IMG/VR virus record: IMGVR_UViG_3300046512_000224
Location: 1 to 28,356 of that record
DNA: 28,356 nt
Direction: 5' to 3' (one strand)
Source: a virus
How positions within the stretch are numbered: position 1 is the stretch's first letter; each line of letters opens with the position of its first letter. Positions 16,231-27,745 of the stretch are shown piece by piece. The notes below the pieces were generated by a model. That model was not told the origin of the DNA and made no database searches. It saw only the letters and a program-made list of their open reading frames with translations. The position numbers and the translations under genes were made by a program.

Positions 16231-16325
16231 TGCATCGCCTCGGTAGTCGGGCTCTCAATGTTGGTCGCAGAAATGCCGCGCTCGTTCTCGTAACCGAGGG
16301 CAATAAATGGGCAGTTAGCCGACAT
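16227..16325 (-). CDS. 32-residue small ORF between CII-like and winged-helix genes
   Basis: Start MSANCPFIALGYENERGISA; ATG 16325 has GGGGAG eight bases upstream, overlaps the end of the CII-like gene by 11 bases, and its stop overlaps the next start (ATGA). These couplings on both sides support translation, though it is too short for composition to help. No function assigned. Confidence 0.45.
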   Translation of the reverse strand: MSANCPFIALGYENERGISATNIESPTTEAMQ

Positions 16326-16848
16326 CCCGGCTCCCCTTTGCCGCAGCGCGCGCGACATTGCGCTCCAGACGGTGCGCCATGGTCCGCAGCGCCCTCGCCT
16401 CACTGACCATCAAGGTCGCTTCATCGCTGTCGATCCTGCGGTCCTTCATCGCGTCCACCGCGGTGCCCGTCAGGCGCCCAACCCGCGTGGTGATCTCCAG
16501 CAGCTTGAGCTGCACCGCCGCGACTTCATCGGCCCACCCGCCTTCAGGCGCCGGGGGCACGACGTCAACGGCCATGCCGAAACGCCCGGCCAGCGCCTGC
16601 ATCCACTCCAATGCGTACTCGCTGCCACCGGCTTTCTCCTGCATCCACTCGGTCAGCAGTTCGGCGATCTCGATTGACACCGACTCACCTTCCAGCCCGC
16701 GCAGCTTCGCGCGCAGGGTTTCCGGGTGCATGGTCTTGCCGCGGCGGTCGGCCAAGTAGGCAGCGGCGTCGGCCACGCCGCCGGGCGTCTTGCGCACGGA
16801 GTTGTAGAGGACATCGAGCCAGCTGAGGTTGGAGGTGCGGCAGGTCAT
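16315..16848 (-). CDS. CII-family phage regulatory protein (CP76 type)
   Basis: 177 residues. The N-terminal third has the family pattern L-Y-N-S-V-R-K-T-P-G-G-V-A-D-A-A-A-Y-L, then T-M-H-P-E-T-L-R-A-K-L-R-G-L-E-G, a helix-turn-helix region, followed by long helices (E-V-A-A-V-Q-L-K-L-L-E-I-T-T). Proteins of this type are called phage regulatory CII/CP76. It is the second or third gene of the early minus operon after cro, the place of lambda cII, and so may bias the decision toward lysogeny. Its DNA target is unknown. Confidence 0.75.
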   Translation of the reverse strand: MTCRTSNLSWLDVLYNSVRKTPGGVADAAAYLADRRGKTMHPETLRAKLRGLEGESVSIEIAELLTEWMQEKAGGSEYALEWMQALAGRFGMAVDVVPPAPEGGWADEVAAVQLKLLEITTRVGRLTGTAVDAMKDRRIDSDEATLMVSEARALRTMAHRLERNVARAAAKGSRDVG

Positions 16849-17803: not shown

Positions 17804-17832
17804 AGGTTAGGACTAGCTAATGCGCCAGTCAA
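17804..17832 (-). promoter_or_regulatory. Early promoter of the cro operon (PR-like)
   Basis: Minus strand: TTGACT (17832-17827), 17-base spacer, TAACCT (17809-17804). The central operator fills most of the spacer and overlaps the -10; the middle operator ends on the first base of the -35. The plus-operon promoter at 19535-19563 has the same geometry to the base, which supports both. Confidence 0.65.
17807..17820. promoter_or_regulatory. Repressor operator 1 of the cro-cI region
   Basis: TTAGGACTAGCTAA, with dyad half-sites TTAG/CTAA separated by 6 bases. First of three sites spaced by 25 bp; lies within the cro promoter. Confidence 0.7.
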
Positions 17833-17845
17833 TAGCCAGTCCTAA
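17832..17845. promoter_or_regulatory. Repressor operator 2 of the cro-cI region
   Basis: ATAGCCAGTCCTAA, one mismatch from the TTAG-N6-CTAA dyad, 25 bp from its neighbours on each side. Overlaps the first base of the cro promoter -35. Confidence 0.65.
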
Positions 17846-17856
17846 CTCAAAGATAG

Positions 17857-17870
17857 TTAGCCTTACCTAA
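17857..17870. promoter_or_regulatory. Repressor operator 3, overlapping the cI start codon
   Basis: TTAGCCTTACCTAA; its last A is the first base of the cI ATG. Occupancy here should block cI transcription or initiation, the role of lambda OR3. Confidence 0.68.
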
Positions 17871-18580
17871 TGACCACACTTGCTGAAAGACTGACCGTCG
17901 CGATATCCCGCGCCAACCTCACTAAGGCAGAACTCGCTCGGCGAGTCGGCATAAGCGCCCCCAGCGTCAACGGTTGGTTCACGGGCAAGGCGAAATTCTT
18001 GCGCGGCGAGAACCTCCTGGCCGCCGCTAAGGCATTGGCTGTAGACGAAGGATGGCTCGCGACCGGCAAGGGTCAGATGGAGTCGAGACATGGACACCGC
18101 GTTGAAGAACCGCCCGCCGACTATCAGATCTCAACAGTCTTAGAGACTGAGACCCCTGCAGGATATGTTCGCTTCGACTTGTTCGAAGGAGGTGCGGGAA
18201 TGGGGGCTGGGTTGGTGAATCAAGACTACCCGGAAGTCGTGCGCACCATAGAGGTCGCAGAGTGGGAAGTGCGGAAGAAGCTCGGCTACCTGCCCCAGCC
18301 TGGTCGTATCCAAATCATCACCGGACGCGGTCCCTCCATGAGGCCCAAGCTGGAAGACGGCGACATCATCTGGATCGATACGACCTGCGACTACTTCGAC
18401 GGCGACGACTACTATCTCATCAACATCGGCGGCGAGACGCAGATCAAGATGCTTCAGCGGCGTGGCGATGGGCTCTACGTGGTGAGTATCAACCCGGATT
18501 TCCCGACCTACCGCTCCGATGAAGGTGAGGTGGCCATCCTGGGCAAGGCTCTGATCCACGCCGGCCTGCGCCGCTTCTGA
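17870..18580 (+). CDS. CI-type repressor with S24/LexA autoprotease domain
   Basis: 236 residues. Helix-turn-helix at about 16-38 (T-K-A-E-L-A-R-R-V-G-I-S-A-P-S-V-N-G-W), then a linker with Ala-Gly candidates for self-cleavage (109-110, 113-114), and an S24 peptidase domain with Ser156 in G-P-S-M-R-P and Lys193 in Q-I-K-M-L-Q. RecA-stimulated cleavage would induce the prophage. There is no ribosome site before ATG 17870 and an operator covers the start codon, so the maintenance transcript may be leaderless, as in lambda. A bidirectional terminator follows the stop. Confidence 0.92.
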   Translation: MTTLAERLTVAISRANLTKAELARRVGISAPSVNGWFTGKAKFLRGENLLAAAKALAVDEGWLATGKGQMESRHGHRVEEPPADYQISTVLETETPAGYVRFDLFEGGAGMGAGLVNQDYPEVVRTIEVAEWEVRKKLGYLPQPGRIQIITGRGPSMRPKLEDGDIIWIDTTCDYFDGDDYYLINIGGETQIKMLQRRGDGLYVVSINPDFPTYRSDEGEVAILGKALIHAGLRRF

Positions 18581-18609
18581 TATGTGTCCCAAATTGGGAC
18601 AGGAAGCAA

Positions 18610-18639
18610 AAAAAAGCCCCGGTTGATCGGGGCTTTTTT
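18610..18639. terminator. Bidirectional rho-independent terminator between cI and DUF4760-like gene
   Basis: AAAAAAGCCCCG-GTTGAT-CGGGGCTTTTTT: a 12-bp arm pair with T-runs on both strands, placed between the convergent cI (ends 18580) and minus-strand gene (ends 18640). Confidence 0.92.
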
Positions 18640-19161
18640 CTACTTCCAGAATTCCCACCACTGCTTCCACTTCGTTCGCGTCTTCAGCGGCGAAGCCTTC
18701 CAGCGCGCTACCAGCAACTCATACTCCTGAAACGCGGTGTTTTTGCCGTCGCGGGTGCGCATAGACTTCACGACCGGCGCTGCGAAATCATAAGTGCTGA
18801 CCATGATGGTGCACCACGCATCCTTCATCATGTTCTCGCAGTAGATGCCATTTCGCAGGCCTACGGAGACCGTTTCGAAGTGATTGAGCACGTACAGGAT
18901 GTCATTGAACTCGGTTTTATGCTCGTCGTCGTCCAACATGGTGAAAAGATTCTTGCCCTTTTCAACATGGAGCTTCCGAACCGTCTGGCATCCGCGCTGC
19001 ATTTGCTCATCACCCCGACTGGCAAAAAGAAGATCTGCCGCCTGCTTCTTTCTTGCGAGCGCCCTGGCCGTCATCACAGAAACAATCGCAACTACGACGC
19101 CCAGCAGGATCACCAGCCCGCGAAACGCCTCATGGGACAAAACACAAATCAGCCAATCCAT
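18640..19161 (-). CDS. DUF4760-like membrane-anchored protein
   Basis: 173 residues. An N-terminal membrane segment (about 12-34, including FRGLVILLGVVVAIVSV) is followed by a cytoplasmic helical domain with D-I-L-Y-V-L-N-H-F-E-T-V-S-V-G-L-R-N-G-I-Y, which matches the DUF4760 pattern as I know it. Function unknown. GGGGGAAGCT precedes ATG 19161. It is less GC-rich than the phage core and sits next to cI on its own transcript, the position of lambda rexAB, so lysogen-expressed exclusion of other phages is a reasonable hypothesis but not shown. Confidence 0.72.
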   Translation of the reverse strand: MDWLICVLSHEAFRGLVILLGVVVAIVSVMTARALARKKQAADLLFASRGDEQMQRGCQTVRKLHVEKGKNLFTMLDDDEHKTEFNDILYVLNHFETVSVGLRNGIYCENMMKDAWCTIMVSTYDFAAPVVKSMRTRDGKNTAFQEYELLVARWKASPLKTRTKWKQWWEFWK

Positions 19162-19174
19162 AGCTTCCCCCTGT

Positions 19175-19206
19175 GAAAACGAAACCACCCGCCTGGCGGC
19201 GGGTGG
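19175..19206 (-). terminator. Terminator-like hairpin in the leader of the DUF4760-like gene
   Basis: Minus strand CCACCCGCC-GCCA-GGCGGGTGG (19206-19185), a 9-bp stem, then TTTCGTTTTC. It lies upstream of the gene's ribosome site, so it would act as an attenuator. On the plus strand no T-run follows. Confidence 0.5.
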
Positions 19207-19231
19207 CATGGTTAAAGTTCTGAGCTATCTC

Positions 19232-19258
19232 TTAAAGGCCGCCGATCACTTCGCGCAT
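19232..19258 (-). CDS. Possible 8-codon leader peptide
   Basis: ATG 19258 encodes M-R-E-V-I-G-G-L then TAA. AAGGAG lies 7 bases upstream, stronger than many gene starts here. It precedes the terminator-like hairpin by about 25 bases. Could be a translated leader or chance. Confidence 0.25.
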   Translation of the reverse strand: MREVIGGL

Positions 19259-19297
19259 GCCACTTCTCCTTTTCTCTATGGGACCAGCCAAGTTGAC

Positions 19298-19311
19298 TTA
19301 GGACTGGCAAC
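19298..19311. promoter_or_regulatory. Lone operator-like site
   Basis: TTAGGACTGGCAAC; its complement shares GCCAGTCCTAA with operator 2 at 17832-17845. One half-site is degenerate. It overlaps the end of a TTGACT (19293-19298) whose matching -10 (TGCTAT, 19316) is weak. It may let CI control the DUF4760-like gene. Confidence 0.45.
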
Positions 19312-19521
19312 AAAATGCTATCACCAGTTGACACCAATTTGTGACCGTAGGGGTCCGGAGAAGTTCACCTAAGTTCACTGACGTCCACAACCGGTCACAA
19401 AGGATCATCGGCCTGGGTGTCGAATTCTAGAGCGGAACGCGTCATCGCACCGCTGGATCGAGCTTTGCAATCAATTGCAAGCTGAACGTGCAGCTGAAAA
19501 TTCAGACTAAGTAACAGAAAG

Positions 19522-19535
19522 TTAGCCTCTCCTAT
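19522..19535. promoter_or_regulatory. Repressor operator 1 of the plus operon (OL-like)
   Basis: TTAGCCTCTCCTAT, one mismatch from the dyad consensus. It ends on the first base of the -35 and is 25 bp from the second site. A half-site CTAA at 19507-19510 lies in register for a degenerate third site. Confidence 0.65.
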
Positions 19536-19563
19536 TGACACCATGATTAGCCACTCCTAATCT
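19535..19563 (+). promoter_or_regulatory. Early promoter of the plus operon (PL-like)
   Basis: TTGACA (19535-19540), 17-base spacer, TAATCT (19558-19563). The second operator lies in the spacer and over the -10, exactly as at the cro promoter. Transcription would start near 19570 and reach the first gene at 19615. Confidence 0.68.
19547..19560. promoter_or_regulatory. Repressor operator 2 of the plus operon
   Basis: TTAGCCACTCCTAA, perfect TTAG/CTAA dyad ends, 25 bp after the first site and overlapping three bases of the -10. Confidence 0.7.
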
Positions 19564-19614
19564 TGGCGTTGTCGCCCCAGTAACCGCCCATCCGGGCCGG
19601 GGCACGGAGACGCC

Positions 19615-20007
19615 ATGAGCACCCTCTGCCTCACAGCGCGCGGTTCCGCCACCGTGGAAGCGCGCCCCAACAGCCAGACCATCGTCGTCAAGATCGGCGG
19701 CGCACTGATCTCCATGGACGCCACCGACGCCCACCAACTCGGAGAAGGACTGCTGGCGGCAGCTGCGCCGGCGAGCGTGGAGGGGATTTCCGGCCAGGTC
19801 ACCGCTACCGCCGATCACGTTCTGGATGCGGTGGTGATCGCGGTGGGTGGGCGCCGCCTGCTTGAGCTGTCCGTCGACGCCTGGTCGTCGCTCTCCATGC
19901 AGGGCTCCAGTGCCGCGCTGGAACTGAAAGGCCCGGCCCTCCGTGTGGGCATGCGCTCCGCACAGCTGCTGCGCGGCAACGCCGACCTGGTCGAGGAAGC
20001 GGCATGA
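19615..20007 (+). CDS. First gene of the plus early operon, unknown
   Basis: 130 residues starting MSTLCLTARGSATVEARPNS, with GGAG six bases before ATG. Short beta-like runs (T-I-V-V-K-I-G-G-A-L-I, A-V-V-I-A-V-G-G-R-R) and an Ala-rich centre. As first gene after the CI-controlled promoter it would be made immediately on induction or infection, when phages often express takeover or anti-host proteins. No family recognised. Confidence 0.65.
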   Translation: MSTLCLTARGSATVEARPNSQTIVVKIGGALISMDATDAHQLGEGLLAAAAPASVEGISGQVTATADHVLDAVVIAVGGRRLLELSVDAWSSLSMQGSSAALELKGPALRVGMRSAQLLRGNADLVEEAA

Positions 20008-26361: not shown

Positions 26362-26668
26362 ACGCCTGCCTGAGCTCTTCACCGAGGCAGCGGCAGCCGA
26401 GTACCTTGGCGTCGCCGAGGTGACCCTGCGCCGCCGCCGCGCCGCCGGCCAGATCGGGTTCACCCGTATCGGCCGGGGCGCGAAGTACACCGAACAACAT
26501 CTACTGAACTACCTGGAGCAGCAAACGTGTCAACCCGCTTCCGCCTCGGCGACTACTGGATCGAGCAGCGCAAAGGCTCAACCGTCTGGCAGAGGGCGTG
26601 GCGCGACGCCACTGGATGCAAGCAGCGCGCTTCGCTTGGCACAAGAGATTTTGATGAAGCCAAGGTAG
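26348..26668 (+). CDS. Excisionase-like MerR-type DNA-binding protein
   Basis: 106 residues. E-L-F-T-E-A-A-A-A-E-Y-L-G-V-A-E-V-T-L-R-R at about 9-29 is the winged helix-turn-helix of phage excisionases, followed by the wing and R-G-A-K-Y-T-E-Q-H-L-L-N-Y. Its last 46 residues coincide with the integrase start in another frame and are low complexity; the functional part ends near residue 60. It would direct integrase toward excision. Confidence 0.75.
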   Translation: MGAAERLPELFTEAAAAEYLGVAEVTLRRRRAAGQIGFTRIGRGAKYTEQHLLNYLEQQTCQPASASATTGSSSAKAQPSGRGRGATPLDASSALRLAQEILMKPR

Positions 26669-27720
26669 CCCTGGCGCAGTGGTTCGTTGAGAACGCGGCC
26701 ATGAAGGACCAGGCACCGTCTGACGTGCTGCTGAGCACCGTCCTGACCCGGTACATGCACCAGCACGGCGACAGCCTGGCCAGTAAGGACAGCGCCAGCC
26801 GGGGCGTCGACCTCTGGAACGAGTTCTTCGGGCCAAGGGCAACCGTGGCTGAGGTCACCATCCCGCGCCAGGAAGAGTTCATGAAGTGGCTGGCGGAACG
26901 TGAGTACACCGACGGCTACGTGCGACGAATGCTGGGGGTCGGCAAGTCCGCCATGAACCGGGCATGGAAGCGCGGCGAAATCACGCAAGTCCCGTTCGTG
27001 GAGCTGCCGCCCATCGGCGAGGCCTACCCGCACTATGCGACCCGAGACCAGATCGTGCGCCTGCTCAACGCGGAAATGCCGGAGCACATCTGGGCGTACT
27101 TCCTGGTGCGGCTGTGCACGGCGTGCCGCGGTGATGCAGCGCGCGACCTGCAGCGCTTCCAGATCGACGCGGACGTCGGGCTGGTGCACCTGAACCCGGC
27201 GGGCCGCCGCCAGACCAAGAAGTACCGCCCGACGGTGCCGCTGCTCCCGGCGCTGGCGGCGTACCTGAAGACGGCCAAGCCTGAGGCGCACCTGGTGCAC
27301 TGGCACGGCGCCCACATCAAGTCGATCAAGACCACGTGGCGGAAGCTCCGCAAACGCGCCCTGTTGCCCGCCTGGTTCGTGCCGAAGACGGTTCGCCACA
27401 CCCTGGCCACGTGGCTGCGTCAGCGCGGCGTGCCGGCCTGGGACGTGTCGGGGCTGCTTGGCCACCATGCCGGCGGCACGACGGACACCTACGCGAAGTT
27501 CGACCCGGCATACATGGGTCCGGTTCGGCAGGCGCTGAACGAAATTATTGAAGATCTGGGGAAGGATGTTCCAAGACTGCGTGCCCTGCTTGGGGTCACT
27601 GTGGGGTCACCTTGCGTGACCCTTGAATCTACTCTTTCCACTCCAAGCCTTGAGGTATCTGGCTTGAGAGTGGTGGGCGGTACAGGGTTCGAACCTGTGA
27701 CCCCTACCATGTCAAGGTAG
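26527..27720 (+). CDS. int: Tyrosine integrase
   Basis: 397 residues, GTG start. An N-terminal arm-binding domain is followed by a core-binding domain and the catalytic domain with R201, K287-x-x-R290 (R-H-T-L), H313 in L-G-H-H-A-G-G and nucleophile Y322 in T-D-T-Y. The last residues (G-G-T-G-F-E-P-V-T-P-T) are encoded by the tRNA gene itself, read on the other strand. It recombines attP with the tRNA 3' end and overlaps the excisionase frame by 142 bases. Confidence 0.93.
   Translation: MSTRFRLGDYWIEQRKGSTVWQRAWRDATGCKQRASLGTRDFDEAKVALAQWFVENAAMKDQAPSDVLLSTVLTRYMHQHGDSLASKDSASRGVDLWNEFFGPRATVAEVTIPRQEEFMKWLAEREYTDGYVRRMLGVGKSAMNRAWKRGEITQVPFVELPPIGEAYPHYATRDQIVRLLNAEMPEHIWAYFLVRLCTACRGDAARDLQRFQIDADVGLVHLNPAGRRQTKKYRPTVPLLPALAAYLKTAKPEAHLVHWHGAHIKSIKTTWRKLRKRALLPAWFVPKTVRHTLATWLRQRGVPAWDVSGLLGHHAGGTTDTYAKFDPAYMGPVRQALNEIIEDLGKDVPRLRALLGVTVGSPCVTLESTLSTPSLEVSGLRVVGGTGFEPVTPTMSR
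27592..27622. repeat. Candidate integrase arm-type sites
   Basis: GGGGTCAC at 27592-27599 and 27603-27610 (11 bp apart) and inverted GTGACCC at 27616-27622, with another GTGACCCC inside the tRNA at 27697-27704. They lie in the integrase 3' end, at the place where attP arm sites are expected. Confidence 0.45.
27638..27673. repeat. Inverted repeat ending at the tRNA 3' end
   Basis: CCACTCCAAGCC (27638-27649) and GGCTTGAGAGTGG (27661-27673) pair with one bulged base. The right arm includes the encoded CCA of the tRNA. It could be part of the att structure or, on the minus strand, a structure that terminates or processes the tRNA transcript; no T-run follows. Confidence 0.4.
27671..27720. other. 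Prophage-chromosome att junction in the tRNA 3' half
   Basis: The integrase frame ends inside the tRNA gene, which remains complete and is followed by chromosomal uvrB. The common core must lie in this 3' part of the tRNA (T-arm to anticodon arm). Its exact limits need the other prophage end, which is outside the window. Confidence 0.65.
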
Positions 27721-27745
27721 TGCTCTACCGCTGAGCTAACCGCCC
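27671..27745 (-). tRNA. tRNA-Val(GAC)
   Basis: 75 bases including encoded CCA. Acceptor stem GGGCGGT/ACCGCCC, D-arm GCTC-AGCGGTA-GAGC, anticodon stem CTACC/GGTAG with loop TTGACAT (anticodon GAC), T-arm ACAGG-TTCGAAC-CCTGT. All arms pair perfectly, so the tRNA is intact after integration and reads GUC/GUU codons. Confidence 0.97.

Follow-up and report, generated by a model that had tools for sequence, protein, structure and literature searches.

A lambda-like immunity region in a probable Stenotrophomonas-type prophage, with one CI-type repressor predicted to control two diverging early operons

Several described switches offer close parallels to the region considered here. In phage lambda, the divergent cI and cro genes are accompanied by three OR operators, the same motif recurs at OL, which belongs to the early operon of the other direction, and the PR operators lie at about -17 and -41 from the PR start. 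The immB regions of N15 and phiKO2 have five operators, three at OR and two at OL, and the CB repressor of these phages has been reported to lack cleavage motifs (PMC4997575). In PY54, a relative of N15 and phiKO2, leaderless cI and cro mRNAs have been mapped (PMC4488713). Phage 933W possesses a lambdoid CI-type switch without OL3, with 15-bp operators and a repressor reported to be non-cooperative (PMC3317979). No published lambda-like operator from Stenotrophomonas or Xanthomonas was found, many subscription journals lying outside the search, and the literature on Pseudomonas phage D3, a possible precedent, yielded no useful match.

The stretch of DNA analyzed here (the window) comprises all 28,356 nucleotides of a virus record whose end is host DNA, namely, a tRNA-Val and the end of a uvrB-like gene. 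About 690 bases of this end match Stenotrophomonas genomes at 82-87%, and the record probably represents a prophage from a Stenotrophomonas-like bacterium. The tRNA-Val (27671-27745, minus strand) adjoins the uvrB-like host gene and is overlapped by the end of the integrase frame (26527-27720); it is probably the attachment site. Comparison with PHROGs assigned CII-like, O-like, and Q-like genes to the minus strand; the plus-strand genes end with an excisionase and the integrase, and the order as a whole is that found in lambda. The cI-type product displays the features of a self-cleaving repressor in its sequence (Ser156 and Lys193, along with Ala-Gly pairs within an AGMG stretch that is conserved); a search for a PDB relative by sequence gave none at an E value of 1e-3. 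We consider it very probable that this is a lambda-like immunity region in which a single CI repressor acts over both PR and PL (Table 1).

Table 1. Coordinates of the features of the immunity region in the window
Feature	Position	Strand	Remarks
CII-like activator gene, PR operon	16315..16848	-	phrog_101, E 2.3e-20
cro-type gene, 146 aa	17357..17797	-	N-terminal P22_Cro/YdaS-like HTH, scoring under the Pfam gathering cutoff
PR promoter, TTGACT-N17-TAACCT	17804..17832	-	-35 at 17832-17827, -10 at 17809-17804
OR1 operator, TTAGGACTAGCTAA	17807..17820		overlaps PR -10; TTAGGACTNGCTAA present in 24/24 class A loci
OR2 operator, ATAGCCAGTCCTAA	17832..17845		abuts PR -35, over PRM -35 position; identical in 23/24 class A loci
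OR3 operator, TTAGCCTTACCTAA	17857..17870		over candidate PRM -10; TTAGCCTTDCCTAA in 24/24 class A loci
Candidate PRM -10, TAGCCT	17858..17863	+	invariant in 24/24 class A loci; predicted start is the cI ATG
cI-type repressor gene, 236 aa	17870..18580	+	HTH and Peptidase_S24 (Ser156/Lys193), Peptidase_S24 E 1.7e-15
Weak sixth match, GTTGCCAGTCCTAA	19298..19311	-	2 mismatches to TTAGCC-NN-TCCTAA
OL2 operator, TTAGCCTCTCCTAT	19522..19535		final base is the first T of PL -35; recovered by OR-trained profile
PL promoter, TTGACA-N17-TAATCT	19535..19563	+	-35 at 19535-19540, -10 at 19558-19563; tabulated in 23 relatives
OL1 operator, TTAGCCACTCCTAA	19547..19560		overlaps PL -10; recovered by OR-trained profile
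PL leader RNA hairpin	19574..19603	+	outer stem 19574-19578/19599-19603, inner stem 19586-19589/19594-19597
First PL-operon gene	19615..20007	+	no family match

The operators were named after those of lambda (17807, OR1; 17832, OR2; 17857, OR3; 19547, OL1; and 19522, OL2), and the positions that a preceding sequence-only reading had given for these five 14-mers are exact to the base. Across the whole window, TTAG-N6-CTAA with at most one mismatch has exactly five matches, which are OR1-3 and OL1-2. The looser pattern TTAGCC-NN-TCCTAA, with up to two mismatches, recovers the same five and, beyond them, only the weaker match at 19298-19311; many equally good scattered sites, which would have spoken against the proposal, are absent from the window, and outside their operators the loci of relatives contain weaker scattered matches only. 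The match at 19298-19311 was set aside as a sixth operator, as it is weak and not conserved in relatives, and it is probably not a working one. At 25 bp from the OL pair, where a third OL site was sought, there is only a CTAA half-site (19507-19510), and none is conserved in the aligned OL regions. Both promoters have the anticipated form, TTGACW-N17-TAANCT, and the anticipated overlap with the operators also holds at each of them, one operator sharing the first base of the -35 hexamer and the next covering bases 1-3 of the -10 hexamer. Where OR2 (ATAG...) and OL2 (...CTAT) deviate from the dyad, each by one base, that base is the T shared with TTGAC.

A search with the CI protein retrieved 77 viral loci and 10 genome loci, all 10 of the latter from Stenotrophomonas. 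We refer to the set of 24 viral loci L004-L026 and L029, whose CI is of one class with that of the window, as class A, the letters A-E having been coined in this analysis. The OR triple, at 25 plus 25 bp, is present in 24/24 of these loci, amid variable inter-site DNA. A weight matrix trained on the OR sites alone, and then used to scan the DNA downstream of cI, found exactly two strong sites in every one of the 24 loci, and these lie 0.76-2.5 kb away from the start of cI and have PL between them; the number of OL sites is thus two throughout class A. As a side observation, the CI of a further locus, L079, is only 36% identical to that of the window, yet the locus has class A-like OR and OL sites at 25 bp. 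The cro-type frames of L024 and L028 span only 74-76 aa, against about 145-155 aa in relatives; the long C-terminal portion could thus be either unnecessary or disrupted in these two loci.

The OL double-site pattern alone was also searched for in 2.9 million viral contigs. It was found in 34 stretches, 31 of which have CI or an HTH-related repressor upstream; the exceptions are L105 and L129, in which the fetched DNA starts less than 0.4 kb before OL, and L103, with no repressor match in 4.4 kb. Neither class A operator pattern was found in any of 299 sampled host-family genomes. The non-CI repressors near OL double sites possess a CI-like HTH at 58-64% identity. Short versions of 174-179 aa with such an HTH but no S24 domain are encoded at L097, L099-L101, L119, L122, and L124; these use TTAG-N6-CTAA operators (OR3 is degenerate in L122) and, lacking the S24 domain, are presumably not subject to SOS cleavage. 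With several of the S24-less repressors, such as the 174-aa version of L097, the class A OR triple ends at the same ATG position, which indicates that the operators belong to the HTH and not to the C-terminal domain.

At least five further repressor classes occur in this phage family, with nearly the same C-terminal S24 peptidase domain and different HTH domains. Across the six classes OR, OL, and the CI HTH change together, and within related loci the OR motif always matches the OL motif; when the exact A, B, C, and D patterns were cross-searched in each other's loci, three isolated matches were obtained in total. The simple method used gave no motif in some of the more divergent loci, among them L049 and L060-L069. 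Judged from these comparisons, operator sequence tracks the CI DNA-binding domain, and this co-variation, along with the matching of OR to OL, gives strong support to the earlier proposal of one CI-type repressor over two diverging early operons.

The Cro N-termini likewise vary between the classes in step with the operators, so that these sites may also serve Cro. One could hence argue that the five sites are bound by Cro or some other regulator while CI uses other sequences, but we regard this as quite improbable: in classes A-E the CI HTH changes while the S24 domain stays, and the repressors recovered by the OL-only search share the CI HTH even where their C-terminal part is unrelated. The odds that the sites are merely chance repeats in AT-rich intergenic DNA are negligible. 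A single perfect 14-mer dyad can arise by chance, dinucleotide shuffles of the window giving a mean of 1.2 matches within one mismatch, but five matches were reached in 1 of 100 shuffles, the three site pairs at 25 bp in the window compare with none in any of 300 Markov resamples, and the conservation of the sites amid variable spacers in 24 loci already refutes chance. For CI as the repressor at these sites, the 25-bp period had been read as compatible with cooperative binding. Compatible it is, and the OR1-OR2 and OL1-OL2 distances of 23-26 bp in every class, together with a class A OR2-OR3 distance that is likewise 25 bp with no PR or PL promoter across it, would fit a period set by cooperative contacts between adjacent CI dimers. 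We nevertheless hold this to be a minority prospect. Among the class A loci tabulated, an OL spacing of 26 bp is found only in L019 and L025, both of which have an 18-bp promoter spacer, while all others have 25 and 17 bp; the OR2-OR3 distance, 25 bp in class A and 24 bp in class E, falls to 13-15 bp in B, C, D, and D2 despite the same CI C-terminal domain; and repressors with unrelated C-terminal domains, without S24, retain 25 bp. Because the spacing follows the promoter-spacer length exactly and is kept with unrelated C-terminal domains, the period is not evidence of cooperativity.

A comparable division applies to the suggestion that the repressor acts as CI does at the lambda OR and OL: the two-operator control is supported by the sequence comparisons, but the PRM side is unlike that of lambda. 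The OR2 center lies at -31.5 from the cI ATG in classes A, B, and C, at -36.5 in D, and at -43 to -43.5 in E and D2 (-44 in the class E locus L044), and the best match to TTGACA at the PRM -35 is 1/6 in classes A-C versus about 4/6 in D, D2, and E. OR3 of the window is centered at -6.5 from the cI start, its last base being the A of the cI ATG (17870). A T at -7 and the lack of a Shine-Dalgarno-like sequence (D2 excepted) agree, in most classes, with cI being leaderless, and the predicted PR start coincides with the cro ATG, with OR2 at 41.5 bp from it in class A and at 40.5-43 bp in the other classes; the cro and cI ATGs are 73-74 bp apart in classes A-C. Both genes are thus probably leaderless, a feature that, given the mapped PY54 transcripts, is not new. 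A cI transcript has to contain its ATG, which places OR2 no more than 31.5 bp from the transcript start in classes A-C; this argument rests on there being no alternative cI start codon further downstream, and none is seen in the first codons. The -35 element is absent in these classes because OR2 occupies its position, so that cI should not be activated from OR2 in the manner of lambda; CI at OR2 would most likely limit its own promoter or, otherwise, activate it through a contact unlike that of lambda. Such activation, by a new contact at -31.5 that replaces the -35 element, would explain how cI is transcribed at all, as with a 1/6 match it would hardly be so unaided. We think it unlikely, as the missing -35 follows trivially from the position of OR2 and a site centered at -31.5 normally blocks RNA polymerase. 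To our knowledge, lambda, 434, and P22 do not use repressor-activator action from this position, and, if true, it would be a mode different from theirs.

Two other parts of the region deserve mention. Just before the Shine-Dalgarno sequence of the first PL-operon gene, the leader RNA is predicted to form a hairpin with an outer stem, a one-sided bulge of 4-10 nt, and an inner stem. It is present in 23/24 leaders across the immunity classes, with stems that differ but are mostly re-paired, one of them probably being a chance stem; the stems were read sequence by sequence, MAFFT/RNAalifold having misaligned them and given three pairs only. The hairpin has no match in Rfam, and in the window, where the first PL gene is without a family match, no N gene or nut sites were identified. 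A structural scan for a copy in the PR transcript gave unspecific matches only, with no clear copy. The interval between cI and OL, the place of rexAB in lambda, contains a DUF4760 gene (18640-19161, minus strand; Pfam E 1.8e-31) for which PADLOC gave no match; the length of this interval differs between relatives, and it may be a cargo slot. A terminator-like hairpin (19184-19207, minus strand) lies just upstream of the DUF4760 gene and is preceded by an 8-codon frame, MREVIGGL (about 19233-19259, minus strand), with a Shine-Dalgarno-like sequence. This frame and hairpin could be a leader peptide and an attenuator.

Taking these findings together, the mechanism that we infer, which includes CI binding, CI self-cleavage, leaderless transcripts, and looping, would operate as follows. 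A CI dimer would bind the 14-bp dyad TTAG-N6-CTAA; at OR1 and OR2 it would cover PR and silence the minus-strand operon of cro, CII, replication, Q, and late genes, and at OL1 and OL2 it would cover PL and silence the plus-strand operon running toward xis and int. Both promoters would be freed by the self-cleavage of CI upon SOS induction, and Cro would probably compete for the sites of CI. The classes form a natural series of lambda-like switches in which a near-constant CI C-terminal domain is combined with swapped DNA-binding domains and matching operators. They amount to six predicted homoimmunity groups among Stenotrophomonas-type prophages, from which one could predict which phages superinfect which lysogens. 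Further, class E, with OR2 at -43 and a -35 present, and classes A-C furnish natural pairs, in place of engineered mutants, for testing the need of lambda's positive autoregulation for stable lysogeny.

On sequence grounds, the switch would work like that of lambda with N15-like site numbers, as a variant with two OL sites, probably leaderless genes, and a non-lambda PRM layout in three of the six classes. The window shares with lambda the divergent cI and cro genes with three OR sites, the recurrence of their motif at OL on the other early operon, a CI with HTH and S24 domains, and the CII-, O-, and Q-like genes, and its PR operators, at -16.5 and -41.5, compare with about -17 and -41 in lambda. 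Lambda has three OL sites versus two in the window, whose 14-bp operator and predicted leaderless cro are also unlike lambda's. Measured on their own records, OR2 lies at -42 from the cI start in lambda, where OR3 is at -19, and at -45.5 from the cB start in N15; the window, with OR2 at -31.5 and OR3 at -6.5, lacks a PRM -35. The five operators, three at OR and two at OL, are shared with N15 and phiKO2, but those of the latter are 16-bp TA-N10-TA sites, their CB differs from the S24-bearing CI of the window, and their OL governs plasmid replication, unlike that of the window. Finally, 933W resembles the window in having two OL sites, with operators of 15 bp versus 14 bp.
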